Positions 2,523 through 25,426 of a DNA stretch of 26,470 nt are shown piece by piece; within the stretch, counting starts at the first letter, position 1; each line of letters starts with the position of its first letter. Where the stretch lies: the IMG/VR virus record IMGVR_UViG_3300042502_000899, positions 1 through 26,470 of that record. One strand, 5' to 3'. Position numbers and translations under genes: made by a program. This DNA comes from a virus. The notes beneath the pieces are model-generated. The model ran no database searches and was not told the origin of the DNA. It saw nothing but the letters and a program-made list of their open reading frames with translations.

Positions 2523-2736
2523 TGGAACCCTCTCCTTTCAACTGCCCGAAGAGCAGCCGGAATTTGACTTGGCTTGTAAAGCAGGGGATATTCTTTTTGT
2601 TCTTAACGGGTTTGCTAATCATCTTCGTTCTCATATTCGCCATTCTACTGATTCCGATTGGGATACAGCTACTGTGGAAAAGCTTTACGAACTTCTTAAT
2701 CAAATGAAGACAGAGTACTGTCTCCACTTTGAATAA
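2515..2736 (+). CDS. Conserved small phage protein (LPEEQ-type), unknown function
   Basis: The 73-residue product begins MANGTLSFQLPEEQPEFDLA. A beta-strand followed by LPEEQxEF, then a helix with a xFxNHLRSHIRH segment and a C-terminal helix ending YELLNQMKTEYCL, matches a family of short phage proteins commonly seen as x-LxFxLPEEQxEFxxA...LRxxIKY. I recall no experimentally defined role. It overlaps the acidic protein gene by 8 nt and is followed by a 16-nt gap. The alternative frame at 2522-2707 encodes a hydrophobic translation and is a shadow. Confidence 0.75.
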   Translation: MANGTLSFQLPEEQPEFDLACKAGDILFVLNGFANHLRSHIRHSTDSDWDTATVEKLYELLNQMKTEYCLHFE

Positions 2737-2752
2737 AACCAACACAACAACC

Positions 2753-3361
2753 ATGACCATATACCTGTGCGGTCCCATGACTGGGATCGAAGACCTCAAC
2801 CACCCCGCCTTCTTCAAGGCTGAAACCCATTTAATGGCTATGATGTACGATGTGATCAATCCGGCCAGAATGGACGAGGAACTGGGCTTAGACCCCCACC
2901 AAGGGGTGATGGACCCCGAATTCCTTAAAAAGGCCGCACAGCGTGATCTGGAGGCCGTAATAGCCTCTGATGGAATCGCTTTGCTTCCCGATTGGGAGAA
3001 GTCCAAGGGAGCCAAGGCAGAACTGGCAGTAGCCCAGTGGTTGGGCAAGAAGGTTTACCTCTATCCGGCTATGGTGGAGTATGGCAAGGAGTCGATCTTG
3101 GACACGGCCAAACGCCTGACCTCCAGCGACAGGCAGAAGGACTACGGCCATCCCAAGGACAACTTCAAGCGGATTGCCGATCTCTGGAATGCCTACCTGA
3201 TCAACCGCAAAAATCCCGAAACAGAAATATCCACTGAGGATGTGGCGTGGATGATGGTCTTGCTTAAAATAGCGCGAGACCTAAACAAGCCAACCTTAGA
3301 CAACCTAGTTGATAGTGTGGGGTATATCCGTACCCTCGCCATGGTTAGAAACATTGAATAA
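2753..3361 (+). CDS. DUF4406-DUF6378 fusion protein, nucleotide-metabolism type
   Basis: The 202-residue protein (ATG 2753) appears to join two domains. Residues 1-105 match DUF4406, a relative of nucleoside 2-deoxyribosyltransferases: IYLCGPMTGIEDLNHPAF at the N-terminus, EVINPAR-like INPAR at 35-39, IALLPDWEKSKGAKAELAVA at 75-94 with Glu90 at the position of the catalytic Glu, then a VYLY strand. Residues 112-200 match DUF6378 (ESILDTAKRLTSSDRQKDYG, DNFKRIADLWNAYL, ISTEDVAWMMVLLKIAR), an all-alpha domain often found beside phage nucleotide enzymes and related in form to MazG folds. Inference: it trims or salvages nucleotides, perhaps for modified-base supply. The upstream leader is A/C-rich with no Shine-Dalgarno; the TTG at 2729 is less likely. 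Confidence 0.8.
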   Translation: MTIYLCGPMTGIEDLNHPAFFKAETHLMAMMYDVINPARMDEELGLDPHQGVMDPEFLKKAAQRDLEAVIASDGIALLPDWEKSKGAKAELAVAQWLGKKVYLYPAMVEYGKESILDTAKRLTSSDRQKDYGHPKDNFKRIADLWNAYLINRKNPETEISTEDVAWMMVLLKIARDLNKPTLDNLVDSVGYIRTLAMVRNIE

Positions 3362-11066: not shown

Positions 11067-11936
11067 ATGTCTAGAATCACTAACATCTACAACCTACCCC
11101 AGCCCTTCGTAGACCTCGTTAGCGGGGATACCTACAGCAAGGGAGAGTCAGACATCACCACTACGGGGTTGGCTCAACCTCCCAAGATTGCCGAACTCGC
11201 CAGACGCCATGCTGGTGAGATCACGATGGATGCATCCGAGAAGGTGTGGACCATGATGGGTACGGCCAACCACTACGTCTTGGAACAGATCGCCCTCCGA
11301 AATCCCGAAAGATACGTTACCGAGCAACGCTTCTATTTGGATATCGACGGGGTCAAGCTGGGTGGACAAATTGACTTATTTGACCGCGAGACCGAAACCC
11401 TATGGGACTACAAGGTCTCCAGCGTCTACAAGGCCATGAGCGATGACAAGCTGGAGTGGGCCAAGCAAGCCAACGTCAACAAGCTCTTGTGTGAACACAA
11501 CGGATTCCACCCCAAGAAACTGGCCATCCTTCTGGTGATGAAAGACTGGAAGCGCAAGGAAGCGGAATTCAAGGCCGACTATCCCAAGTGCGCCATTCAA
11601 GAAATCCCCCTACCTATTTGGAGGGAGGAGGAAACTTTGGCCTACATAAAATCCCGAATCAACTTGCACAACTCAGCAAAGTTGATAGAAGAAGAGGATG
11701 CCATCCCTGTATGCACAGAAGAAGAGCGTTGGGCTAGACCCACAACGTGGGCGGTCCTCAAGGAAAAAGGAGCGAAACGTGCCGTTAATGGAGGGATCTA
11801 CGAACTTGAATCTGAAGCTATCGCTCACGCCAAGCGAATCGGTGGTGCAATTGAAAAACGGGATGGGTCAAATCCGCGCTGTGAAAACTATTGCCAAGTG
11901 CGCCAGTGGTGCAACTTTGGAAGAAACCTAAAATAA
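11067..11936 (+). CDS. PD-(D/E)XK nuclease with Cas4/AddB-like cysteine cluster
   Basis: The 289-residue product shows the PD-(D/E)XK core. GTANHYVLEQIAL at 65-77 holds a RecB-type helix with His69. GGQIDLFD follows, with Asp103 at the 'PD' position, and LWDYKVSS gives Asp114 and Lys116. Cys216 and a C-terminal set Cys272-x3-Cys276-x5-Cys282 (RCENYCQVRQWC) match the four-cysteine pattern that binds a 4Fe-4S cluster in Cas4 and AddB. It probably degrades or resects DNA, either as a recombination exonuclease or to recycle host DNA. The start ATG 11067 has only an AT-rich upstream stretch (TATAAC at 11056-11061) and no Shine-Dalgarno. The next gene begins 4 nt after it. No cas1, cas2 or CRISPR repeats are in the window. 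Confidence 0.85.
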   Translation: MSRITNIYNLPQPFVDLVSGDTYSKGESDITTTGLAQPPKIAELARRHAGEITMDASEKVWTMMGTANHYVLEQIALRNPERYVTEQRFYLDIDGVKLGGQIDLFDRETETLWDYKVSSVYKAMSDDKLEWAKQANVNKLLCEHNGFHPKKLAILLVMKDWKRKEAEFKADYPKCAIQEIPLPIWREEETLAYIKSRINLHNSAKLIEEEDAIPVCTEEERWARPTTWAVLKEKGAKRAVNGGIYELESEAIAHAKRIGGAIEKRDGSNPRCENYCQVRQWCNFGRNLK

Positions 11937-13368: not shown

Positions 13369-14343
13369 ATGTCATCACTTTCGCTTGGACTTGCCATAGA
13401 GAGACTCCCCTCTTCCGTCATTCCCGTTGCAGATCCTCCTGATCTTGCGGGGTTTGATGCTGGGGTGGAACTGCGTAACAATATCAACCGCTTTTTGGAA
13501 CGGGTGCTCAGTGAAGGGAAATGGGAAGGTACTGTGGTTCAGGCACTTATCTCAGCCTACGAAGATGTGGATGAGAACAAGTTTATCACTTTGCCCCGTC
13601 ACTTGGAAACTTGCTTGCGTGGCGGTCAACTGGGCTATAAGACCCGCGCCGTTCAGAGCGAATGGTATCAGTACCTACCCCAAGGGCGGGGCATCCGTAA
13701 AGAGGATCAAGCTTACTTTGGTCCATTACAGGACATGGGGAGCGGATTTCTTACGTTTCGGGATTTGCTTACTCCGTCAACCCTAACTGTTTCCACCGAT
13801 CAAACTGAATGTGCCGGATCTGAGATCATCATTCGCGGAAAAGATTCCAGTGGTAACAAGATCTATTCGACAGTGGACGGAGAACCGATTGAGGGAATTA
13901 GGTTTGACATGGCCAGCGGAACCCAGACCTCTGCCCAAACATTTGCAGAGATCTATGGCGTGGAGAAGACCCTGACCAAGGGTAACATCACGCTTGCTGC
14001 TGGTGCAACCACCCTCGCTAAGTACGAGGCAGGGGAGAGGGCGATAAACTATCGTCGCTATCTGGTGGACAAGAATTGGGATGCCGTCCAAGGCATTTTC
14101 AAACGCCGCCATGTGTGGGCAGTTAGCGACAACGATCCCCTCTATCCCGACAACCTAGAGGCCATCAAGCTTGGACTCATGGCCCTGAACGCCGAAGACA
14201 AGTCTGATGTGGAGCGCGGTCAATATTACATGGACAGAGCGATTCTACTTTTAAATGCCGAACTAAAAGAGTATAACGCAGGGCAAGAGGGGGTTATGCA
14301 AATCGCCCCTTGGCTAACCCGACGAATGATCAACATGCAATAA
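13369..14343 (+). CDS. Virion structural protein, tail-tube/adaptor-like, 324 aa
   Basis: Residues 33-95 contain NNINRFLERVLSEGKWEGTV, FITLPRHLETCLRGG and AVQSEWYQYLPQGRG, a pattern of helices then an LPRxxET strand and a WYxxxPxGxG segment. Residues about 130-190 hold a beta-sandwich signature (TVSTDQTECAGSEIIIRGKD, then GNKIYSTVDGEPIEGIRFDM). The C-terminus is helical (NLEAIKLGLMALNAEDKSDV). The whole is typical of a virion protein recurrent in uncultured podovirus-like genomes. Position ahead of three internal-core-like genes suggests the counterpart of the T7 tail-tube protein gp11 or a head-tail connector, but this is inference. It is followed 5 nt later by the next gene. Confidence 0.65.
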   Translation: MSSLSLGLAIERLPSSVIPVADPPDLAGFDAGVELRNNINRFLERVLSEGKWEGTVVQALISAYEDVDENKFITLPRHLETCLRGGQLGYKTRAVQSEWYQYLPQGRGIRKEDQAYFGPLQDMGSGFLTFRDLLTPSTLTVSTDQTECAGSEIIIRGKDSSGNKIYSTVDGEPIEGIRFDMASGTQTSAQTFAEIYGVEKTLTKGNITLAAGATTLAKYEAGERAINYRRYLVDKNWDAVQGIFKRRHVWAVSDNDPLYPDNLEAIKLGLMALNAEDKSDVERGQYYMDRAILLLNAELKEYNAGQEGVMQIAPWLTRRMINMQ

Positions 14344-14348
14344 TACCT

Positions 14349-15422
14349 ATGGCTATTGGAAATACATTTGATCAAAACCGAAAAATTCGCAATGCCATTG
14401 CTAGTCCAGCAAATCAACGTGCGAAAGACATGAGTGAAGCTAGAGGTGAGTTCAGGGCCGAAGGCAAGCTGTTTGCTGATTTCCCTGATCGCACTGCATA
14501 CGATCAAGCCCTATATGATCGCGCACAGGGAATTGCTGCCGGAAGAAGCGAAGCTAATCAAGCCGCTCAGGCTGGTCCAGTTAATAACGTTTTAACAGAA
14601 TCTCCAAATTTAAGGTTTCCCATGACTCAGGGTGGGCAACTTGGCATTAGTCAAGAGTCAGTCAGTGAAAAGGCAGAAGCAGAAAAAATGAGGTTGGGCG
14701 GATTACAACCATTTGGCATTACAGCGCAACCAACAAACTTTGAAAGTGCCGGAGTCAAGAAGGAATCGGGTGGCGTAATTCAGACGCCCTACGGAATTAT
14801 GTCCACTTCTGCGCCTGTTGGCCAAAAAGAATTTGAGGGTCGCATGGCACAAGTCGGTCCAGATAGATCTGAGTCTTATGCCATGACCCCGTTTGGCGGT
14901 GGGTTTGAGCGTCAATTTTCTGGGGCGGATGATCGTCAGGTGGCGTTGGCGAGAGCGTCTGAGGGGGGACTTCTAATTGGTCAAAGACTTCAAGAGCAGG
15001 GCCGCAATCGTTACTACGCCTTTAGAGAAGAGAGTGAACGTGGCAGGGCGGAAGAGGCCCTATCGACTGAGCGTGGACGAAGCCCTGACAAGGCTCTTGG
15101 GGCACAGGCCCTGATTAGGGCAGAGCGATTTCGCCAAGCCCAACAAGGACGCAGTCCCATGAGTAGGTCTCCACTTGTTTTTGGTGCTAGTGCCCCCCAA
15201 CCAGCGGCATCATTTTCGACAAGTCCATCCATGGGTGGTCCCTCAACTATGAGGGGTGGGGGTAGTCCGTTTTCTTTTACCCCGTTTTCCCAAAGGATGG
15301 AAAATCAGGCAAGCTCTTTAATGGGATTTTCTTCTGAGGTTGGCAAACCGTTGAATGTTCCAAAATCAAAAAACCTCAGACCGGATCGTCTTCCATTTAT
15401 GATGAGACCATTTGGCGGCTAA
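14349..15422 (+). CDS. Probable internal virion protein, 357 aa
   Basis: I start this gene at ATG 14349 (MAIGNTFDQNRKIRNAIASP) rather than the TTG at 14310, which lies inside the previous gene. The product is Gln-, Arg- and Gly-rich with low complexity: KEFEGRMAQVGPDRSESYAM, RFRQAQQGRSPMSRSPLVFG, and a disordered Ser/Pro/Met-rich C-terminal region ending MMRPFGG. Residues about 25-70 (NQRAKDMSEARGEFRAEGKL) are helical. I recognise no enzyme motif. Between a tail-tube-like gene and a coiled-coil protein plus giant polyvalent protein, the order mirrors T7 genes 14 to 16, so an ejected internal-core role is plausible. Composition is a little more AT-rich than the neighbours. Confidence 0.6.
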   Translation: MAIGNTFDQNRKIRNAIASPANQRAKDMSEARGEFRAEGKLFADFPDRTAYDQALYDRAQGIAAGRSEANQAAQAGPVNNVLTESPNLRFPMTQGGQLGISQESVSEKAEAEKMRLGGLQPFGITAQPTNFESAGVKKESGGVIQTPYGIMSTSAPVGQKEFEGRMAQVGPDRSESYAMTPFGGGFERQFSGADDRQVALARASEGGLLIGQRLQEQGRNRYYAFREESERGRAEEALSTERGRSPDKALGAQALIRAERFRQAQQGRSPMSRSPLVFGASAPQPAASFSTSPSMGGPSTMRGGGSPFSFTPFSQRMENQASSLMGFSSEVGKPLNVPKSKNLRPDRLPFMMRPFGG

Positions 15423-15427
15423 CTCCC

Positions 15428-16969
15428 ATGGACGAAGAAAATCAATTAACACAAGGAGTAGGCTCTCAACCCACCGGAATGGTTGGCGCAATGCAGGGAA
15501 TGCAATTCACCCCATCTTCAATGGGTCAGTATGCTCCTATTGAGGCAAACAGATCATCAATGGCTCCGAGGGAGCTTCCAGAGGATTGGGGTGGAAGGCC
15601 ATCTGGAACTAGTCGCCGCGCCATCCGCATGCAAGCCGATTGGGACAAGAAAAGGGCGGCAGAGATTGAGGAGCAACGCGACCTTCAAGCCATGGACATT
15701 CAGCGAAAGCAATTTGAGATGGGTTTACGCGATCAAAAAATGCAGGAAGACAGCTTTTACTATGATCGTGGAATACAGGAAGCAGAACAAAAACTAAAAG
15801 CACAACAACTGGAAGAAGCCAAAGATTTTACCAATGCTGCAAATTCACTTGATCCTCGCTCTCCCGATTATCGTGATCAACTTATAAGTTTAAGAAAGCA
15901 GTACCCACTTGGGGCGTTGGACCCATCCGTAAATTCAATTATCGGAGAGTATGACAAGGTTCATTCTGTCTATATGGAGATAGAAAAGGAAAAGAAATCA
16001 GAACAAAATCAGGAGCGGGACTGGAGGGTTCGACAAGAAGACACAGCTTCCGAGCTTGGCATTGATGTGGACAAATTCAAGAATGCAAAAACCGGAGAAA
16101 TTGATCGTGTCGGACTAATGCGAGAAGTTGGATCTCAGCGAAGAAAACAAACAGAAGACAAAGAAAATAAAATCAAAGAAGAAAGATTGGATCAAGAAAG
16201 CCGTGGCGCGGCAAAGACCGTTATTCGCGAAATCAACGATATAACCGACGAGCTTGAGGCGGCAGAATTTGATGCCAGCAATTCCAAAGGGCTAGTCCAA
16301 AGGGAGGCATTAGGTAAGGTAAGGCTTCTGCAATCTCGTCTTGGGCGCAGACAGGATGAACTTTCACAGATTGTGGGTGGCTCCTCAACAAATAAACCAG
16401 CCCCTCCAGCACAGTCAGCACCAACAAAAGAAGAGGTTGATGCTGCTCGCGCATTTATAAGAGAAAATCCAGATAGTCCGCAGGTTGATGGGCTGAAAGC
16501 GGTTATTGGAAGATACGAAAGCAGGGAGAGCGAACCCACCACAGCAGGGCCAGCCTCACCCGCTACTCCTGCCGCACCCGCCGCAACCCCAACGCCTCCA
16601 TCAACAACTCCCGCTTCTACACCAACAGAGGCTCCATTTTTAACAAGAGAAGAATTTGAGGCTATTCCTGAAACTCGCAGAGAGTTTGCCACTGATGAAA
16701 TGAAAGATACGCTTGATACTATTGATCAATTAAGTGCAGAGCTTAACAAGTTGTACGGGGTTAGATTTACATCTAAAGAGAACAGAGATAAATACGATGC
16801 TCTTAAAAATCAGCTTAGAGCAAAACGCAAAGAAGATACCAAACTCAGGGCAGATAGAAGCAAAGAAATTAGTGAAGAAATGGAAAGGATTGGACCATTT
16901 AGTTCTGGAGAAAGTCGCAAAAAATATGTAACACTACAAAAAGAGCTTAGACTTTTGAGTGGAGTATAG
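15428..16969 (+). CDS. Coiled-coil virion protein with Pro/Ala/Thr linker, 513 aa
   Basis: The start ATG 15428 follows the previous stop by 5 nt. Residues about 55-300 are highly charged and helical (RKQFEMGLRDQKMQEDSFYY, KEKKSEQNQERDWRVRQEDT, then REALGKVRLLQSRLGRRQDE), consistent with a long coiled coil. Residues about 318-330 and 369-402 are Pro/Ala/Thr-rich linkers (NKPAPPAQSAPTKE; PATPAAPAATPTPPSTTPAS). A small helical domain lies between, and a C-terminal charged helix region ends RKKYVTLQKELRLLSGV. No catalytic motif is seen. An elongated linker-rich protein directly upstream of the giant gene fits an internal-core or ejection-channel subunit (T7 gp15-like position), not a known enzyme. 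Confidence 0.6.
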   Translation: MDEENQLTQGVGSQPTGMVGAMQGMQFTPSSMGQYAPIEANRSSMAPRELPEDWGGRPSGTSRRAIRMQADWDKKRAAEIEEQRDLQAMDIQRKQFEMGLRDQKMQEDSFYYDRGIQEAEQKLKAQQLEEAKDFTNAANSLDPRSPDYRDQLISLRKQYPLGALDPSVNSIIGEYDKVHSVYMEIEKEKKSEQNQERDWRVRQEDTASELGIDVDKFKNAKTGEIDRVGLMREVGSQRRKQTEDKENKIKEERLDQESRGAAKTVIREINDITDELEAAEFDASNSKGLVQREALGKVRLLQSRLGRRQDELSQIVGGSSTNKPAPPAQSAPTKEEVDAARAFIRENPDSPQVDGLKAVIGRYESRESEPTTAGPASPATPAAPAATPTPPSTTPASTPTEAPFLTREEFEAIPETRREFATDEMKDTLDTIDQLSAELNKLYGVRFTSKENRDKYDALKNQLRAKRKEDTKLRADRSKEISEEMERIGPFSSGESRKKYVTLQKELRLLSGV

Positions 16970-16972
16970 AGA

Positions 16973-19900
16973 ATGATCAACTTCAACCCCGATGAATTCA
17001 TTCGGAAATATGGAGACGCACCAACCGAAGATGAGGAAGGGGCGTCATCATCTGCGACTCCGACCCTAGACACGGAGCCAAAAAAGGAAGAGACTGTTGC
17101 GGCGGCAGGGTCATTGGGTGGGTTTAACCCAGATGAATTTATAAAAAAGTACGGCGTAGAGCCAAATAAGCAAGCCGAAGGTGGCGGGGATTATCTGGCG
17201 AGGCAGGCTGAGTATTTGATGAGTCGCCAGCCACTGGATGCTGAGACTCAGCTACCTGCCACAGAAGAGCCCAGAGATAATAGCTGGGACACGCTACGGG
17301 GTCTTGAGGTTTCAATGCGCCAAGTTCCGCAATTGGCCTATGGTGTTGCGGGGTTGGTTGGTGAAACCGCCGAGCAGCTTACGGGTTATGGAGAGAGTCT
17401 TCGGGATTTTGGATTCAAGGGATACCAAGATTGGGCTCAAAGCATGGAGCCAATCTCCAAAGAAACCGATGATGTCACGGTAGCTTGGCAACGCGCCAAA
17501 GAAGGTGATGTCGGGGCATTGGTTGATTGGGCGCAATACGGTATTGGCTACGCCCTTGGGCAGCTTGGAGAGACAGCGGCGGTTGCTGTCTTGGGCGGCA
17601 TAGCTGGTGGCGCGACAGCGGCCCCCGCAGGCCCTGCTGCTGTTCCAGCGGCGGTGGGTGGTTCTGTTGTGGCGGCGGCTGGAAAACAGGGATTCAAGGA
17701 TCTTGCTAAAAATCTTGTTGAGAAAGCCATTGCCAACCAAGCAAATAAGATTGTTATAAACCAAGCCAAAAAAGAAGGCGTCGAACTAACTGCCGAGCAG
17801 GTTGCCAAACGCGCACAGCAAGAAGCCATCAAGCGTCAGGCCGGAAAAGAGATTGGTTCCAATGCTGCTGTGTTCGCCAATGCTATTGGAATGCAGCTTG
17901 GTTCCATCTATGGATCAGCCGAAGAGCAGGCGCGAGCAGAGGGGCGGGAACTTACGGGAGTTGATTTAGCTCGCATCTGGGGAACGGGTGTTGCCACAGG
18001 CGGCATTGAGGGTGTTGTTGATAAATTTGGATTGGATCTTTTGAAGGGCAAGCTTTCAGACAAGCTTCCTGCTGGTCGATTGGCTGGGGCGGCAGTGGCT
18101 GGCGGAGTCGGAACCTTGGGAGAAGCGGCAACCGAGGCAGTCCAAACAGTTGGCGAGAGATTTGGTGCAGGAAAAGACATCCTTAGTGACGAGGCTATCA
18201 ATGAATACATCAATGCTTCCGCCTTGGGAGGTCTGGGTGGCGGGGCAATTGGCGGAGTGGGTGGATTTATTTCTGGCAATCCCAAGGAAAACGCCGCAGC
18301 AAAAGCCAAGGTATCTTCTGAGGCAAATAAGGAGATTGCTCCTGCCACTGCTGAAACTGTGGCCCGACAAGCCGATGCCGTCATTGCTGAAACAGTTCAA
18401 GAAACTCCTGAACAGCGAGTAACCCGTCTTCAAGAAGAGGCTACCGCAGCAGCAGGAATAGAACTAGAAGAAGAAGCTCCTGTTTCGGGGTTGCCTCCTC
18501 AACCTGTCACACCAACAGCAGAAGCTCCCGTAACGCCTGCTGTAGCCCCTATAGAGCCAGTAGTTGAGCCAGCAGTAGCAGGGCCGCAGCCTGCCGCAGA
18601 AGTCGCGCCAGAGATTGTTCAACAGGCAGAGCAGCGAGCAATAGCGGACTTCGCAGAAGACCTCTATGGCAATGAGCCGTATGTCAACCATCTTCGTAGG
18701 GTTTCAGATCAAATGCCCAATGATAAGCTCAAGACAACGGCGTTTCTGCATGATTCGGTGGAAGATGGGAAAATGACGTTAGACGAAGTCAGATCACAGT
18801 TTGGAGATGATGTTGCGGGGTTGGTGGATATGGTTAGTAGAAAGGATGACGAAACCTACTCTCAATTCATTGACCGCATTGCCCAAAATCCTGAAGCAGC
18901 ACAAATTAAATTGGCAGACCTTCGCGAAAACATCCGCAATGTTGAAGACTTTAAACCATCTCTTCGTTCTCGCTACGAAAAAGCCATTGCCAAACTTGAA
19001 GCCGCTCAACCCGCAGTGACTCCTCCCGCCGAGGTTGCTCCCGAAGTTACCCCTGCTCCCGAAACCCCGAATCTTGAACCCCTACGCCGAGTAGCAAGAG
19101 CAGAACAGGTTCCAGAAGACGTTCCTTCCTTGGTGGATGCGGGGTTGGTCGAGGTCTATAAGGATCAACCAGTGCTTACTGAGGCAGGGATTGCCCAGTT
19201 ACCCGAAGCAGAACGCCCAAGGCTGAACCCCGAAGCCCGAAAGATCCAGATCGACACAGGATCAAACGAAGTAGTAGCCGAAGCCATCGCGAAGGGTCTT
19301 CGTATCGGGGTGGATCAGGTGGGATTCAATGTGCGTATGCCAGCGGGATGGGTGCTGGATGGAGATATCTATGTCCCGCCCACTCCTCAAGAGGTGGCCC
19401 CCGCCCCCGAAGTAAGAGAATCCCGCAGGGAACCCTCCGTCGAGATGCGTCAGCAATACGCACCAAAAACGGAAGAAGAACAAAAAGCTTTCGACAAGGC
19501 ATCAACCAATAAAATTCTAGCGCGAAGCCCTCAACTTGCAGTAGCCGCAGTCAGGATGAAGAACGGCGAGATCACTGCTGGTGAGTATGCCGACTTGGTG
19601 GATGCCATTGATCCGTTTACGGCCAAAGGCCCAGATCCTGTCGCGACTGATGACAAAATCAAACAATACATTCAGAGTGATAAAGTCGGTAAGGTTGGAT
19701 TGATTGACGAAAAAGGAAATCCCAGACTTCAAGAAGGTTCTGAATATGAGTTTAGAATAGATATTCCAACATATAACAGGTCAACAACGGCGGGAGATAC
19801 GGTATATGCAATCACGGCACATCTTCCAGTTGCTGATGATTCCAAAACGGTTGGAGAGGTTGCTGCATTTACTGGCATAGCTAAAGTTACAGATCCGAGA

Positions 19901-22900
19901 TTTATGACCCGCAATGTGCGAGAGGGCGGGGCGATAACCATTGCAGCGGGTGCTGGCAAGTTCCGACTAGCAACCGTGAAGGGTAACTACGAACCAATCA
20001 CCGATCTCCCCGCAGACATCAACGATCCTAACGTCTGGACAGAAGTCGGATACAACCCGATCCGCTCCAGTTTCTTTGTGGATACCCGTAGCAAGGATGC
20101 TGTGGTTGGTGGATCTGAAGCCATTATGGTTGGCTCCCGTGTGTTTGTTAAGGATGCAGTTTTGGAGCCTCGCCCAACTGGAGTCACGATGGGTGAGAGG
20201 TATGCCAAGATCCAGATGCCGCGCCCTGCTGGCATGGAGACCGAAGCAGTAGCGACCAAGCTGGAGTCTTTGGGGTTTGGGCGGGGCGGGATCGTATCGG
20301 TGGTCAATGAACCCGATGCCTCCTTTGAAGGCCGCACTATCATCCGAGATGGGAAGGTAGTAGCCATTGAGCTAAACGCCGCAGCCCTGAAAGACGATGC
20401 TGCTGTCGAGCGAGTCCTAAACCATGAGATTGCCGAATCCGCCAACGCCGATGGAGCATTGAATACTTTGGTTGCGGGGTTGACCCCGAAAGAAAGAAAA
20501 GAAATCAACGATGCCATCACTAGGTTGGGCTACGCAGAGAAGGCCAGAACCGCCGAGGAAGCCGCCAGAGCCGTCGAGCTACTAGCCGAAGGATGGAGGG
20601 GCAGGAAGTGGTTTGATCGTGCTGTGGCGCGTGTTGAGGCATGGGCCAACAAGCTGGGCTACAAGCTTACCCGCCGAGCCGCTGAATACATTGCGGCCAG
20701 AAACATGGCGGAAGTCAATGACGCTTTCCGTAAACGGACAATTGCCGATGCGCTGGCCAACTTGAAGGGCGCAAGGAAGGTCAACTTCAACGGACTCAGT
20801 GCCGTCTTGATTCCGCCAAGCGAGATGGAGTTTGCCTACTCTATTGCGGCATACCATGGAACTCCGCACGTTATTAAGGATGGATTCCAGTTGGCAAAGA
20901 TCGGAACTGGTGAGGGGGCACAGGCTTATGGGTGGGGACTGTATTTTGCCGAGAACATTGATGTTGCTCGCGAATATCAAGCCAAACTTTCCCGTGATCG
21001 CTTCAAAGACGAAGCCACAAAAGTATACAACGATTGGAAATCAAACAATCCGAAAGAAGCATCCATTTTTGAGGATGAGGTTATTTCCAAAGGAATACAA
21101 AATGTACGCAACGAAGACTTTGCCATTGAGCTACAGAATATACTTGATGGATTTAGATCAACAGAAGCAAACGTATCTTCCGCAGAAAAGCTTTCGTCAA
21201 GAATATCTGGAATAGGAAATCTTTATTCGGTTGATCTGAATATTGAAAATGACAAGCTTCTTGATTGGGATAGCGTTTTTGCAAAGCAAAGCGATTTTAT
21301 TAAGAACGCTCTACAACCAATCATAGGGCAAATAACTGACGCCAACCTTGGAGAGTTGGATCGCTTTACTCTTGGAGCCGTTCTTTCCGATTTCTACAGA
21401 AACCCCAAGCTGATCGGGCTGGGCAGCAAAAAAGAAGTAAGTGAATTTTTCGCACAGCAAGGAATACAAGGCATTAAGTATTTTGATAGGGCAAGCCGCT
21501 TTGCCCAGCCAAAGAGGACGGGATTCGGGTGGCTTGTGGATGACTATCGCGGATCGAATTATTTCAAAACTAAAGAAGAGGCTTTGGAGTTTGCCAAGAA
21601 AGCTGCGACTTCCAACTTTGTTGTATTTGATGAGAGTCTAATCAACGTCACTGGACTAAATGGCCAATCCGTAGACATCCGCGAATCCCGCAGAGAAGAC
21701 GCCATCCCCACCTTCTCCGAGGGGAGCCCCGAAGCATCTACTCTTTCTACTATGGCGGCATCTATGGCCAAGGTGGATACGGCATCCGAGGCCAAGCCAA
21801 ACCCCGAAAACAAACCCACCTACAAGATCAGCGAGATAGCCTCTGTCTGGATGGATCAGGGTGGAGATGTCCGTCAACTCCAAGACCTCATCTCAGAGAA
21901 TACCAATCTTACCCCAACTAATGCGGCGAAGGTGGCCAATGCCATTGCCAAGCAATACGATATCCAGCAGTCCATCGCTACGGCATTCATTGAAACCCAA
22001 ACGGGATTGTCTGTCGAAGCACTGCCAGAAGGTGTAACCCTTCCCAAGGAAGTTGACCCTGATCGCCCACGCCCCGTCATGGCCCGTCTCTTTGATGTGT
22101 TCATGGGTGTGCGGGTTCCCCCTGTCAAGATTCAGGTCAATGAAAAGACCGCGCTCAAACAGCAGATCCGACTCAAGGCCGCAGCCAACCGAGCAGCTAA
22201 AGCAGAGCAGAGGCGTACCGCTGAAGAGGTGGTTGAGATCATCAAGTCCATGGAACTCCTTGGCCCCGTGCGTCCGAAGCAGGTTCAGGCTTTAGCTAAA
22301 CGCGCAGCCCGTGTCATTTGGACAAGCGAAAAGAGTGTCGAGGCTTTCTCAGAATACGCCGCCAAGGTGGTCGAGAATACCAACTACGATGCCGATCTCC
22401 GCGAAGCCAAGGATGCACAGAAGCGAGCCAAACAACTTTCCACCCAGAAGAAGGTGGCGATGGGTCCGCAGCGCGAGGTGCTTGAAGACGTTAGCAAGAT
22501 CCCCGTTAACAAGCTGGACGATCCCCGCATGTTTGCCGAGGCCGTGAACTACTACTTGCGCGGATTCAAGGCGGTGCTGTCACCTGATTATGTGGTCATT
22601 CCCGATGCCGAGATGGAGAGCTATCTTTCTGGAGCCCAGTCCGAGACACAAAGAAACCAGCAGGATCTTGATCGCGAAGCCAATGAGCGTCTGGCCAAAA
22701 AATACGGAATAGAAGCGGATCAGGTCAACGAAATGATGGAGTCAATTGACATCATCAAGCAGATCGAAGCCCAAGAGAACAGAGAGGCACTGGAGAATCT
22801 GTTGACCGAGAAGGCTGTTGAGACCCAGCAGGGATTGCGCGAATACAATACGGACAACCTCCGAAGCGAACAGCGTCCCATTGTTTCTTCCATGCTCAAG

Positions 22901-25426
22901 GTTGATCCCAAGGCCCTTGACCCCGAGGAGCGTCAGCGTTTCATTCGCATCACAAACAATATCATTTACAACAACCAGACCAACGGGGCGGAATACTTTG
23001 TCGCTGTTGCCAAGGGCCAGCAAAGTGCCCGTGAGGCAGCACAAGACTCCGAAATGATAGCCAAGAACAGGGCTTGGATCAATTTGCTTCCTCGTTTTGT
23101 TTCGGAAAGAATGCAGCGCGGATGGGCTCTTGAGTTGCAGTCTGTTGCTGACACGTTCCGCAACGCTTTTGGCAAGGGAGCTATGGCCAAGGTCTACGAT
23201 GCCATGGGCATGCTTGATCTTAACCTTGGATTTACCAAGGCAAACAATACGGTTGATGAGATTCAGAAAAAGATAGCAGACTTCCATCGTGGAATTGAAA
23301 AGAAGTACAAGGAAACGGCTCGCAACCAAGACGGTCTCTTGGCCGAAGGAATTGTTGGATTCTTGATCCAGTCCATTCCCAAGAAAGACGAGGTCACCTC
23401 CATCAACCAACGCCGAGACCTGATTCGTCAGGACATTGCCAATCGCAGGAGATCAGCCGCGCAACCAGACCGAATTGCCATGGCGGATCGCATCGAAACT
23501 ATTCTCAATCAAATTGATGGGGACAGTGTTGAGGCAATCCTGAACAACATGAAGCGCGACTTTCCTCCTAACTACGAATCTTTGATCTGGTACAAGGACA
23601 CCCTGCTTCCTCAATACAAAGACTTCTTGAAGAACTTTGACGAGAACTTCAACGATCAGGCCAACAACTACGATAACCCCAACTATCTTACAATTGGATT
23701 TACTTCTGCTGGCCCGTCACTTGCCATCACCCCTGAAGAGCAGGGCATGTTCTATGACCAAGTGAGCCTGCGCCCGAAACAGTCTGCCTATACCATCAAG
23801 CGTGTTGATTACTCCACACTTCCCAAGGATCGCACAACGGACAGGCCAAAAGAAATTGAATTCAATCTTCGTCGCAACGTGTTCAATGGTCTCTCAGATC
23901 AGATCAACAAGGCTTATACTTCCAGCGGTTGGCAGCGCATCGCCTCCTTTATGAAGACTCCCGAGGCCGAGACGGTGTTTGGTGGTGCGGCCAACAAAGA
24001 CTTCTTTATTGAGCGACTCAATCGTTTGCGCCTCTCCCGTATGCGCCGTGGTTCCATGGGCAGTGGCGGGGCTATTGAGAAGGCCGTCGATTCACTCAGT
24101 GTTATTTCGCGCAAGCTTGGGACTGGAATTGCCCTTGGTGGTATTTATCAGTGGATCAAACAGCCCCCAGACCAGCTTATCACGGCACTTGGTAGCGGTG
24201 GGCGAGCGGATCTTCTCGCAAAGAACATTGCACCATCTACCCAGAAGTCGGCCAGAGAACTCCTTAACAAGTTCTCCATTGGTCGCCGTGGTGACGCCTC
24301 TGCTGGTTACAAATACATCAACCAGATGGAGGGCCATCAGAACAGGCTTGAGCGTTACTTTAGTGAAAGCAAGTGGGATCAGGCTAAGGAGCAGGCGGGT
24401 AATATTGCCGATGTGTGGATGGTTGCACTCAAGTCCTCCGACTTCTTGGCGGCATCCGCAGCATGGATGACCTACTACGAGGGTGAGCTTAACAAACAGG
24501 ACATCAAGATTGATGACTGGTCCAAGGAAGCAGATCTGATTGAGTCCGATCCAGCAAGGCGTCAAGCGGCGGCGTTTGCCGAACAGATGACCGACATCTA
24601 TCAGGGGTCAAGCGACCCGACTTCCATGGCTACGTTTGCCCAAAGCGGGAAGACTGGTTGGGAAAACTTTGTCAAAGCTATCTTTGTTCCGTTCAACTCC
24701 TTTGCTATTCAGCAGCGCATGAGGCTTTACTCCGATGCTGTTGACGCCATCAATGGCAGCACAGCAGGCCGCTTTGGTCTTGCCGGAACAATTGGTGGTC
24801 TAATTCTTTTCCACGCAACCAAGCGATATGTTATCCCCGCTATCTCTGGTGTTGGTATCGGGGTTCTCTACGGACTCATGGGTGTTGATATGGATGAGCC
24901 CGATGAGGAGAAGCAGAAGGAAGAAGCAAATAAGAATTGGAGACAATTCCTCGCAGATCTTACTGGCAACTTGTTGGTTGGAGGGACACCGCAGCTTGTC
25001 GAAACTCAAGTTATTGATGCTATGAATCGGGCCTCGTACCTTGTTTCTCTCCAGCTTGAGAATGATTCAATCCTTAATGATGAGGGCGAGATCATGTCCT
25101 ATGATCAGTACTCCAAAGAGCGTTCGCCATTCTATCGCTACAAGTCCTACGATAATGCCATGAGCTTTGGGATGCTGGACATTGGTATGGGGCAGGCCGA
25201 GCAAGTGGCACTCCAAACCAAGATGCTGGCATCTCCCGAAGAGATGGAGATGTACACCCCAGAAGAACAGCGTCTCCTCTACTTCTCCGCCCTGTCCGAA
25301 TGGTTGCTACTCATGCGCCTCAACGACACCGACTTTGCCAGACTGGTTGGCAAGGCTCGACGCGACATGATCAAGGCGGCAGAAGACCGCGAGAAGGCTA
25401 TCAAAGCCATCCGTAGCGGACGCTAA
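16973..25426 (+). CDS. Giant polyvalent virion protein (2817 aa): SpoT-type HD, degenerate zincin, ART-PolyVal and LPD-like C-terminus
   Basis: The frame is unbroken and starts 3 nt after the preceding stop. Residues 4-14 and 51-61 repeat FNPDEFI(R/K)KYG. After an Ala/Gly-rich hydrophobic stretch (about 180-440) and a Pro/Ala linker, residues 560-670 form an HD hydrolase of SpoT/MESH1 type: YVNH (His573), FLHDSVEDG (His593, Asp594, Glu597, Asp598) and KLADLREN (Asp649, Asn653). Residues about 860-1075 look like a large-polyvalent-protein domain with WTEVGYNPIRSSFF (Trp1022). A zincin-like helix follows at 1148-1160 (NHEIAES, His1151-Glu1152) but lacks the second His. Residues 1290-1566 match ART-PolyVal: AAYHGTPH (His1295), GTGEGAQAYGWGLYFAENID (Tyr1319), GIKYFDR, and NFVVFDESLI. 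RESRRE occurs at 815-820 and 1570-1575. Long helical regions follow, and a C-terminal block (about 2330-2650) resembles LPD38, with hydrophobic segments near 2602-2640. In family terms it is an ejected, T7 gp16-like effector carrier. Roles of the domains are inferred from motifs. Confidence 0.85.
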   Translation: MINFNPDEFIRKYGDAPTEDEEGASSSATPTLDTEPKKEETVAAAGSLGGFNPDEFIKKYGVEPNKQAEGGGDYLARQAEYLMSRQPLDAETQLPATEEPRDNSWDTLRGLEVSMRQVPQLAYGVAGLVGETAEQLTGYGESLRDFGFKGYQDWAQSMEPISKETDDVTVAWQRAKEGDVGALVDWAQYGIGYALGQLGETAAVAVLGGIAGGATAAPAGPAAVPAAVGGSVVAAAGKQGFKDLAKNLVEKAIANQANKIVINQAKKEGVELTAEQVAKRAQQEAIKRQAGKEIGSNAAVFANAIGMQLGSIYGSAEEQARAEGRELTGVDLARIWGTGVATGGIEGVVDKFGLDLLKGKLSDKLPAGRLAGAAVAGGVGTLGEAATEAVQTVGERFGAGKDILSDEAINEYINASALGGLGGGAIGGVGGFISGNPKENAAAKAKVSSEANKEIAPATAETVARQADAVIAETVQETPEQRVTRLQEEATAAAGIELEEEAPVSGLPPQPVTPTAEAPVTPAVAPIEPVVEPAVAGPQPAAEVAPEIVQQAEQRAIADFAEDLYGNEPYVNHLRRVSDQMPNDKLKTTAFLHDSVEDGKMTLDEVRSQFGDDVAGLVDMVSRKDDETYSQFIDRIAQNPEAAQIKLADLRENIRNVEDFKPSLRSRYEKAIAKLEAAQPAVTPPAEVAPEVTPAPETPNLEPLRRVARAEQVPEDVPSLVDAGLVEVYKDQPVLTEAGIAQLPEAERPRLNPEARKIQIDTGSNEVVAEAIAKGLRIGVDQVGFNVRMPAGWVLDGDIYVPPTPQEVAPAPEVRESRREPSVEMRQQYAPKTEEEQKAFDKASTNKILARSPQLAVAAVRMKNGEITAGEYADLVDAIDPFTAKGPDPVATDDKIKQYIQSDKVGKVGLIDEKGNPRLQEGSEYEFRIDIPTYNRSTTAGDTVYAITAHLPVADDSKTVGEVAAFTGIAKVTDPRFMTRNVREGGAITIAAGAGKFRLATVKGNYEPITDLPADINDPNVWTEVGYNPIRSSFFVDTRSKDAVVGGSEAIMVGSRVFVKDAVLEPRPTGVTMGERYAKIQMPRPAGMETEAVATKLESLGFGRGGIVSVVNEPDASFEGRTIIRDGKVVAIELNAAALKDDAAVERVLNHEIAESANADGALNTLVAGLTPKERKEINDAITRLGYAEKARTAEEAARAVELLAEGWRGRKWFDRAVARVEAWANKLGYKLTRRAAEYIAARNMAEVNDAFRKRTIADALANLKGARKVNFNGLSAVLIPPSEMEFAYSIAAYHGTPHVIKDGFQLAKIGTGEGAQAYGWGLYFAENIDVAREYQAKLSRDRFKDEATKVYNDWKSNNPKEASIFEDEVISKGIQNVRNEDFAIELQNILDGFRSTEANVSSAEKLSSRISGIGNLYSVDLNIENDKLLDWDSVFAKQSDFIKNALQPIIGQITDANLGELDRFTLGAVLSDFYRNPKLIGLGSKKEVSEFFAQQGIQGIKYFDRASRFAQPKRTGFGWLVDDYRGSNYFKTKEEALEFAKKAATSNFVVFDESLINVTGLNGQSVDIRESRREDAIPTFSEGSPEASTLSTMAASMAKVDTASEAKPNPENKPTYKISEIASVWMDQGGDVRQLQDLISENTNLTPTNAAKVANAIAKQYDIQQSIATAFIETQTGLSVEALPEGVTLPKEVDPDRPRPVMARLFDVFMGVRVPPVKIQVNEKTALKQQIRLKAAANRAAKAEQRRTAEEVVEIIKSMELLGPVRPKQVQALAKRAARVIWTSEKSVEAFSEYAAKVVENTNYDADLREAKDAQKRAKQLSTQKKVAMGPQREVLEDVSKIPVNKLDDPRMFAEAVNYYLRGFKAVLSPDYVVIPDAEMESYLSGAQSETQRNQQDLDREANERLAKKYGIEADQVNEMMESIDIIKQIEAQENREALENLLTEKAVETQQGLREYNTDNLRSEQRPIVSSMLKVDPKALDPEERQRFIRITNNIIYNNQTNGAEYFVAVAKGQQSAREAAQDSEMIAKNRAWINLLPRFVSERMQRGWALELQSVADTFRNAFGKGAMAKVYDAMGMLDLNLGFTKANNTVDEIQKKIADFHRGIEKKYKETARNQDGLLAEGIVGFLIQSIPKKDEVTSINQRRDLIRQDIANRRRSAAQPDRIAMADRIETILNQIDGDSVEAILNNMKRDFPPNYESLIWYKDTLLPQYKDFLKNFDENFNDQANNYDNPNYLTIGFTSAGPSLAITPEEQGMFYDQVSLRPKQSAYTIKRVDYSTLPKDRTTDRPKEIEFNLRRNVFNGLSDQINKAYTSSGWQRIASFMKTPEAETVFGGAANKDFFIERLNRLRLSRMRRGSMGSGGAIEKAVDSLSVISRKLGTGIALGGIYQWIKQPPDQLITALGSGGRADLLAKNIAPSTQKSARELLNKFSIGRRGDASAGYKYINQMEGHQNRLERYFSESKWDQAKEQAGNIADVWMVALKSSDFLAASAAWMTYYEGELNKQDIKIDDWSKEADLIESDPARRQAAAFAEQMTDIYQGSSDPTSMATFAQSGKTGWENFVKAIFVPFNSFAIQQRMRLYSDAVDAINGSTAGRFGLAGTIGGLILFHATKRYVIPAISGVGIGVLYGLMGVDMDEPDEEKQKEEANKNWRQFLADLTGNLLVGGTPQLVETQVIDAMNRASYLVSLQLENDSILNDEGEIMSYDQYSKERSPFYRYKSYDNAMSFGMLDIGMGQAEQVALQTKMLASPEEMEMYTPEEQRLLYFSALSEWLLLMRLNDTDFARLVGKARRDMIKAAEDREKAIKAIRSGR

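Follow-up and report, generated by a model that had tools for sequence, protein, structure and literature searches.

The 26,470-nucleotide stretch of viral DNA analysed here (the window; IMG/VR record IMGVR_UViG_3300042502_000899) encodes a giant protein of the polyvalent type, and what is new is the presence, in a cargo slot of this protein family, of an HD domain of the alarmone-hydrolase class. The open reading frame (ORF) runs uninterrupted over its full length of 2817 amino acids. Our overall reading, to which we give slightly better than even credence, is that a polyvalent giant carries in its slot a small alarmone hydrolase (SAH), nearest to Aph1, which would be injected and would cancel either toxSAS toxins or a stringent response that blocks infection. 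The features on which the argument draws are as follows.

13369-16969, plus strand: three upstream genes (324, 370 and 513 aa), none assigned to a family with confidence; in L032 each of them has a relative ahead of the giant
16973-25426, plus strand: giant polyvalent-type protein with the HD cassette, 2817 aa (ORF, and scaffold-related loci in IMG/VR, n=19)
18440-18616, plus strand: left flank of the cargo slot, with conserved AAAGIELEE and a Pro/Ala-rich linker after it (common to L029, L031, L032, L034 and L038)
18617-19006, plus strand: HD alarmone-hydrolase module, aa 549-678 (independent profile, 113 bits; PHROG_990 and HD_4; predicted fold)
18659-18667, plus strand: Asp563-Leu564-Tyr565, replacing Arg-Lys of the base-binding segment (alignments)
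18689-18691, plus strand: His573, predicted metal ligand in YVNH (position; aligns with His of 7smg and RSH chains)
18749-18754, plus strand: His593-Asp594, predicted metal ligands (position and alignment to solved enzymes)
18761-18766, plus strand: Glu597-Asp598, predicted catalytic pair (position and alignment to solved enzymes)
18917-18931, plus strand: Asp649 (metal) to Asn653 (the D+4 Asn) of KLADLREN (position and alignment)
19007-19123, plus strand: Pro/Ala-rich linker, then the conserved right flank TPNLEPLRRVARAEQVPED (comparison with relatives)
19460-20290, plus strand: second conserved region, aa 830-1106, without a Pfam family (63% identity to L002; 12 loci)
20423-20437, plus strand: HEIAE motif, aa 1151-1155, of uncertain activity (motif comparison over 18 giants)
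20849-21037, plus strand: ART-PolyVal-like segment, below the curated cut-off (22.8 bits against 31.2)
21890-25423, plus strand: C-terminal conserved scaffold, aa 1640-2817 (36-95% identity in relatives)

Residues 549-678 of the giant are confirmed as an HD domain of the alarmone-hydrolase type in which all of the metal-binding and catalytic residues are kept. The domain matches PHROG_990 (E 5e-29) and, when the stretch 18500-19120 is excised, Pfam HD_4 (E 1.1e-6, 28.9 bits against a cut-off of 27.2); the HD_4 score is 27.2 bits in the genome search and 24.3, under that cut-off, with the whole 2817-residue protein. Single-sequence phmmer against the PDB returned 7smg first (E 4e-11), and an independent profile of 24 HD sequences, from which the window and its closest relative had been left out, scored 113.2 bits on aa 549-678, whereas no score above 3.5 was reached when the protein was shuffled 1000 times. 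The original prediction had located the domain at residues 560-670, which do correspond to 18650-18982, and had named a set of residues, His573 (YVNH), His593-Asp594, Glu597-Asp598, Asp649 and Asn653, all of which lie at the positions it gave and align with their counterparts in solved enzymes. None of the metal residues is lost on alignment; indeed, the ligands (H, HD and D) and the catalytic ED are invariant over 11 aligned rows. Mn2+-dependent release of a 3'-pyrophosphate, a mark of the alarmone hydrolases, is the activity that the domain would have.

The HD fold, for which the original prediction had proposed a structural check, is borne out by a confident AlphaFold2 model of the RSH-hydrolase type (pLDDT 87.6, pTM 0.78; 11-row alignment). 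Foldseek returned 39 matches at E <= 0.001, headed by 7smg (E 3e-7), the (p)ppApp hydrolase of Bacteroides caccae. With VIA-align 2 the best Z score, 19.5, was again to 7smg (rmsd 2.2 over 135 residues), followed by the SAH of P. aeruginosa (17.3), MESH1 (17.1) and SpoT (15.8, rmsd 7.0 over 150), with enzymes of other classes (GlyRS, YpgQ) at 10.4 or less. Since 7smg lies ahead of MESH1 and SpoT both in the single-sequence search and by fold, the domain is better labelled a small alarmone hydrolase that lies closest to Aph1, with its base specificity left open. Thus, of the earlier description as a 'SpoT/MESH1-type (p)ppGpp hydrolase', the intact HD alarmone hydrolase stands on sequence and predicted fold, whereas SpoT/MESH1 as the nearest enzymes and (p)ppGpp as the implied substrate do not. 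It should be emphasized, however, that a mixed phage SAH profile (11 rows, nine of them solo phage SAHs) searched against the PDB places Mesh1 first and 7smg 19th of 23, and it is therefore the single sequence of the window, together with the model, that favours 7smg. In a tree of 26 HD domains the window and its relative L002 group together (98/97) and fall on the Aph1 side, at a fork (83/95) that is drawn open; several branches of the tree are long. A short loop between HDxxED and KLAD, and the motif E-[ST]-Y, are common to the window, 7smg and Aph1-type phage proteins, and are found also in several other solo phage and plasmid rows; aligned long RSHs have an insertion where the window and 7smg have the short loop.

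The original prediction had cautioned that the Arg of the nucleotide-binding segment was not obvious, and the base-binding segment, with the local sequence EDLYGNEPYVNH, is indeed without it: the window has EDLYGNEPY as against RKSGEPY in SpoT, the RKYTNEPY form, and DKAGxxY in Aph1/7smg. Ungapped alignment to the RKYTNEPY form sets Asp563 opposite the Arg, which, going by the alignment, we take to correspond to the guanine-stacking Arg44 of RelSeq. The occurrence of an Asp at the same place in Aph1 is suggestive only. The Arg is absent too from the (p)ppApp hydrolase 7smg and from some solo phage members, and a related form of the segment, GEQxYG, is found in some solo phage hydrolases. A deletion of the base-binding loop had been suspected from an eight-row alignment, and was ruled out by the ungapped match with the GEQxYG solo phage members. 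With the Arg replaced, the segment does not point to (p)ppGpp as the main substrate, and the residues that set base specificity are described as not evident in the relevant passages of PMC7644958. Without settling the base, we lean towards substrates that contain adenosine, or tRNA.

The HD domain used as a tblastn query against phages matches 364 records, 50 of them among the matches listed, which are not ordered by E-value, and the whole giant matches 32 phage records. Among these 32, the lowest E-values for the HD region belong to Aggregatibacter S1249 (6e-12) and Mannheimia 1152AP2 (3e-11, or 1e-15 with the HD domain alone), followed by phage IMGVR 15682261 (1e-9), Pasteurella Pmp13 (3e-9) and Pseudomonas phage Bitten (4e-9). 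In S1249, 1152AP2 and Pmp13 (the Mannheimia, Aggregatibacter and Pasteurella phage loci L007, L008 and L009) the HD gene is preceded by one small ORF and, before that, by the gene of a MuF-type or minor head protein, an order that matches the apk2-iapK-aph1 arrangement (described in passages of PMC12226406), and these genes are therefore probably of the Aph1 type; those of the IMGVR 15682261 phage and Bitten are in other contexts.

The protein that carries the domain is best explained as a phage polyvalent protein, in which a conserved scaffold (the C-terminal ~1180 aa and N-terminal parts) has slots in which effector domains can be exchanged. Proteins of this kind are defined by their mixed, unrelated domains, and are predicted to be injected with the DNA; their commonest domain is a zincin-like peptidase, with HExxH in ~36% of the set and not obligatory (main text of PMC5512222). 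The 'virion-type giant protein' of the original prediction gains support, as one of the polyvalent kind, from the ART-like segment in the window and from HExxH, GNAT and helicase domains in its relatives. ART-PolyVal scores above cut-off in 2 of 18 records and is found at E 0.01 in four, including the window; Pfam searches of the N-terminal parts of 11 giants revealed a GNAT domain in L030 and AAA_34 with Helicase_C in L034; and HExxH occurs in 15 of the 18 giants, the window, L029 and L034 having HEIAE only. The HEIAE motif at 20423-20437 of the window is common to L029, L030, L034 and L038, and could represent a zincin site that has degenerated or changed.

The neighbourhood of the giant in its relatives includes virion genes. 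In L002 the fourth gene upstream of the giant encodes a tail spike (phrog_4636, E 1e-80), and a terminase gene (phrog_2, E 1e-12) is nearby on the other strand; in L042 the third gene upstream encodes a tail fibre (phrog_24754, E 1e-62). For the window's own three upstream genes there was no PHROG and no Pfam match above cut-off, and the match of the second of them to L032 is weak (E 4e-7). No PHROG was found for the scaffold, whose C-terminal model (pLDDT 51) is too poor for fold comparison; the podovirus portal family PF12236 gave no match in nine relatives, a negative that carries no information as the control genomes gave none either; and no RelA_SpoT synthetase (PF04607) was detected in any of the 18 records, window included, which may be fragments. 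With virion genes seen in relatives and the window's own neighbours without a family, we infer from family type and gene order that the giant is probably packaged and injected. Elsewhere in the window are an amidase/endolysin (1510-2139, phrog_1794) and an exonuclease (11067-11936, phrog_2139), and the protein encoded at 2729-3361, with TIYLCGPMTGI near its start, resembles by eye a DUF4406-type nucleoside deoxyribosyltransferase fold.

The clearest evidence, which was missed in the original prediction, is that the HD domain is an exchangeable cassette. The C-terminal scaffold identified 17 loci in IMG/VR, or 19 with a 13-row alignment (17 of the 19 already found), and the middle region (aa 830-1106) added 8 further contigs. 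In total 28 contigs, window included, are related by scaffold or middle region; four of these have an open 5' end (L040, L041, L063 and L064), leaving 24 with a complete N-terminal part (19 scaffold contigs, that of L002 among them, with the 8 middle-region-only contigs and the window, minus the four). Extra loci on contigs already counted (L043, L011, L047, L058, L067, L070, L073 and L076) were dropped, while L044 and L045, which encode an identical giant, were counted as two contigs. The 8 middle-region contigs, of which L074 and L075 have only 33-35% identity in that region, were tested for the HD domain on the fetched stretch rather than the whole record. The domain was present in 2 of the 24 contigs, the window and IMGVR_UViG_3300010354_000003 (L002), and HD_4 was not detected in the 16 other scaffold records searched whole. 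Both L029, 95% identical in the scaffold, and L065, 98% identical in the middle region, are without it. The rarity of the HD domain among relatives points to no general need for it.

The flanks AAGIxLEE (left) and LRRVxRAEQxPED (right) enclose 203 aa in the window and, in L029, L031, L032, L034 and L038, 224-464 aa without an HD match, and Pro/Ala-rich linkers lie on both borders of the HD domain. On these comparisons aa ~500-703 constitute a cargo slot in which the HD domain is the exchangeable element. More than one such unit is apparently accommodated there, as L031 and L032 are identical over a stretch of 147 residues in its first part and diverge thereafter. By eye, the occupants in L029, L031 and L038 resemble further small enzyme domains, perhaps ART-like, and that of L032 contains HELGH; the slot sequences of these four loci received no Pfam assignment at E 0.01. 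Two further regions of the giant deserve mention. The stretch 19460-20290 (~277 aa), 63% identical to L002 and 98% identical in L065, is possibly a new polyvalent-associated domain, and a second variable region (slot aa ~1270-1550) contains the ART-PolyVal-like segment, close relatives differing or being without the segment there.

The phage HD rows examined were separate small genes, none within a giant protein, and the plasmid records with distant HD matches (248) likewise gave small genes in the three that were examined. Among 292 candidate stretches in bacterial genomes, a long RSH from Larkinella was the one relative, a weak negative as the patterns came from the linker and first helix. 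Two DNA patterns drawn from the HD motifs matched the L002 contig alone.

The window and L002 were compared over four regions of the giant. Nonsynonymous differences are fewest in the HD domain, at 7.7%; they reach 22% for the middle region, 44% for the scaffold and 55% for the N-terminal part, with synonymous differences saturated in all four regions at 76-79%. Of these regions the HD domain is thus under the tightest constraint, in line with what a functioning enzyme would show, and purifying selection on it is strong. Saturation of synonymous sites indicates that the domain is old in both lineages, which leaves both an old transfer and shared descent as explanations for its presence in the window and L002. 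A recent transfer of the module between the two lineages, suggested by the island of identity, was dropped as the HD pS of 0.76 is saturated.

How might such a cassette act? In the mechanism that we propose, the giant would be packaged in the virion and enter the cell with the DNA, where the HD domain, either tethered by its Pro/Ala-rich linkers or freed by proteolysis, would remove the 3'-pyrophosphate, in a metal-dependent manner, from (p)ppApp, possibly (p)ppGpp, or tRNA 3'-CCA ends. Acting before phage genes are expressed, it would cancel toxins of the toxSAS type (CapRel, FaRel2, Apk), or else an infection-blocking stringent response. Passages of the published work provide two precedents for the target: FaRel2 modifies tRNA, and the SAH of phage SSU5 takes this modification off again (PMC11559606), while Aph1 hydrolyses pppApp and neutralizes Apk2 toxins, mostly in part (PMC12226406). 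CapRel-SJ46 is a phage-activated defence that pyrophosphorylates tRNA (PMC9712102). A more specific form of the proposal, which we hold only tentatively, is that of a virion-delivered antitoxin, in which the injected SAH cassette of an ejection polyprotein would undo the (p)ppApp or pyrophosphorylated tRNA of toxSAS defences (CapRel, FaRel2, Apk) from the first moment, its relatives loading other counter-defences in the slot.

It could be argued that an injected, genuine hydrolase simply lowers host (p)ppGpp in the manner of SpoT or MESH1, so that transcription and translation stay permissive when the cell is starved, with no cancelling of toxins. The fold and the catalytic residues are those common to alarmone hydrolases, and the first rank of Mesh1 with the mixed phage SAH profile is in keeping with this view; the missing Arg of the base-binding segment and a (p)ppApp hydrolase as the nearest relative by single sequence and fold argue against it, as does, in the passages of PMC7644958, the uncertainty with which base specificity is read from sequence, and we consider it unlikely. 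Nor need hydrolysis of (p)ppGpp help a phage, as in a test of 67 phages nearly half infected better, and the other half less well, when the alarmone was lacking (reported in PMC12814882).

That the giant is not delivered at all, the HD domain acting in the producing cell, for example to shield it from a toxin of a prophage or of the host, or persisting as a structural leftover, is an improbable reading, although packaging is itself inferred and the Aph1 relatives are described as immunity proteins of the toxin-producing cell (passages of PMC12226406). Delivery accounts better for the fusion to a giant scaffold with tail and packaging genes close by, no cognate toxin is visible given that no RelA_SpoT synthetase was found in the 18 records, which may be fragments, and a leftover should not show the tightest constraint among the four regions. 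Very doubtful is the proposal that the domain, together with the neighbouring ART-like domain, hydrolyses another nucleotide (for example NADPH, or an ADP-ribose or cyclic-nucleotide product). NADPH hydrolysis has been reported for MESH1. The proposal draws on the ART-PolyVal-like segment within the same protein and on the occurrence of alarmone-related HD phosphatases in ADP-ribose conflict gene neighbourhoods (passages of PMC9503650), but the L002 record has the same HD domain with no ART-PolyVal match, and both motifs and fold are of the alarmone type, other structural classes remaining at Z <= 10.4.

The window's HD domain resembles the (p)ppApp hydrolases of the Aph1 type that MuF prophages encode (7smg and the Mannheimia and Pasteurella proteins) in its catalytic residues, short loop and E-[ST]-Y; these provide its best structural and single-sequence PDB match and are among its best phage matches. 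Aph1, however, is a solo protein of ~140 aa encoded beside a toxin, whereas here the domain is part of a 2817-residue protein in a record (possibly a fragment) with no synthetase found, there is no solo gene beside a MuF-Apk2 toxin and IapK, and the DKAG segment has become EDLYGN. In its very large size, its several unrelated domains, the proximity of tail and packaging genes, and the ART, HExxH, helicase and GNAT domains of its relatives, the giant is like the polyvalent proteins of Iyer et al. 2017, in the main text of which RelA/SpoT synthetase domains, in contrast with the hydrolase found here, are described (PMC5512222). Phage SAHs outside giants (PHROG_990; PaSpo of Salmonella phage SSU5) belong to the same family, and some solo members are also without the Arg, but the rows examined are separate small genes, presumably expressed after infection. 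The HD-alarmone phosphodiesterases of jumbo phages are placed in no polyvalent protein in the relevant passage of PMC7824862, which leaves their solo state unstated. With SpoT, MESH1 and other RSH hydrolases the domain has in common its fold and its metal and catalytic set; these enzymes, however, score below 7smg in the single-sequence search and by fold and carry the Arg where shown (RKSGEPY in SpoT), and, in contrast with the long RSHs (SpoT/RelA), no PF04607 synthetase domain follows the hydrolase in the window. In the literature passages covered, the main text of PMC5512222 among them, no polyvalent or virion protein was reported to contain an alarmone hydrolase domain; that main text contains none of the terms 'HD domain', 'hydrolase' and 'phosphohydrolase'.

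If the proposal is correct, an injected hydrolase cassette is the opposite move to the alarmone synthetases of some polyvalent proteins (main text of PMC5512222), and defences that operate through nucleotide or tRNA modification would be cancelled before any phage gene is read, something for which the solo phage alarmone hydrolases examined would need to be expressed first. A slot with fixed flanks and changing contents also offers a handle for finding early counter-defence domains by sequence alone, and makes what a phage needs at time zero a testable question.
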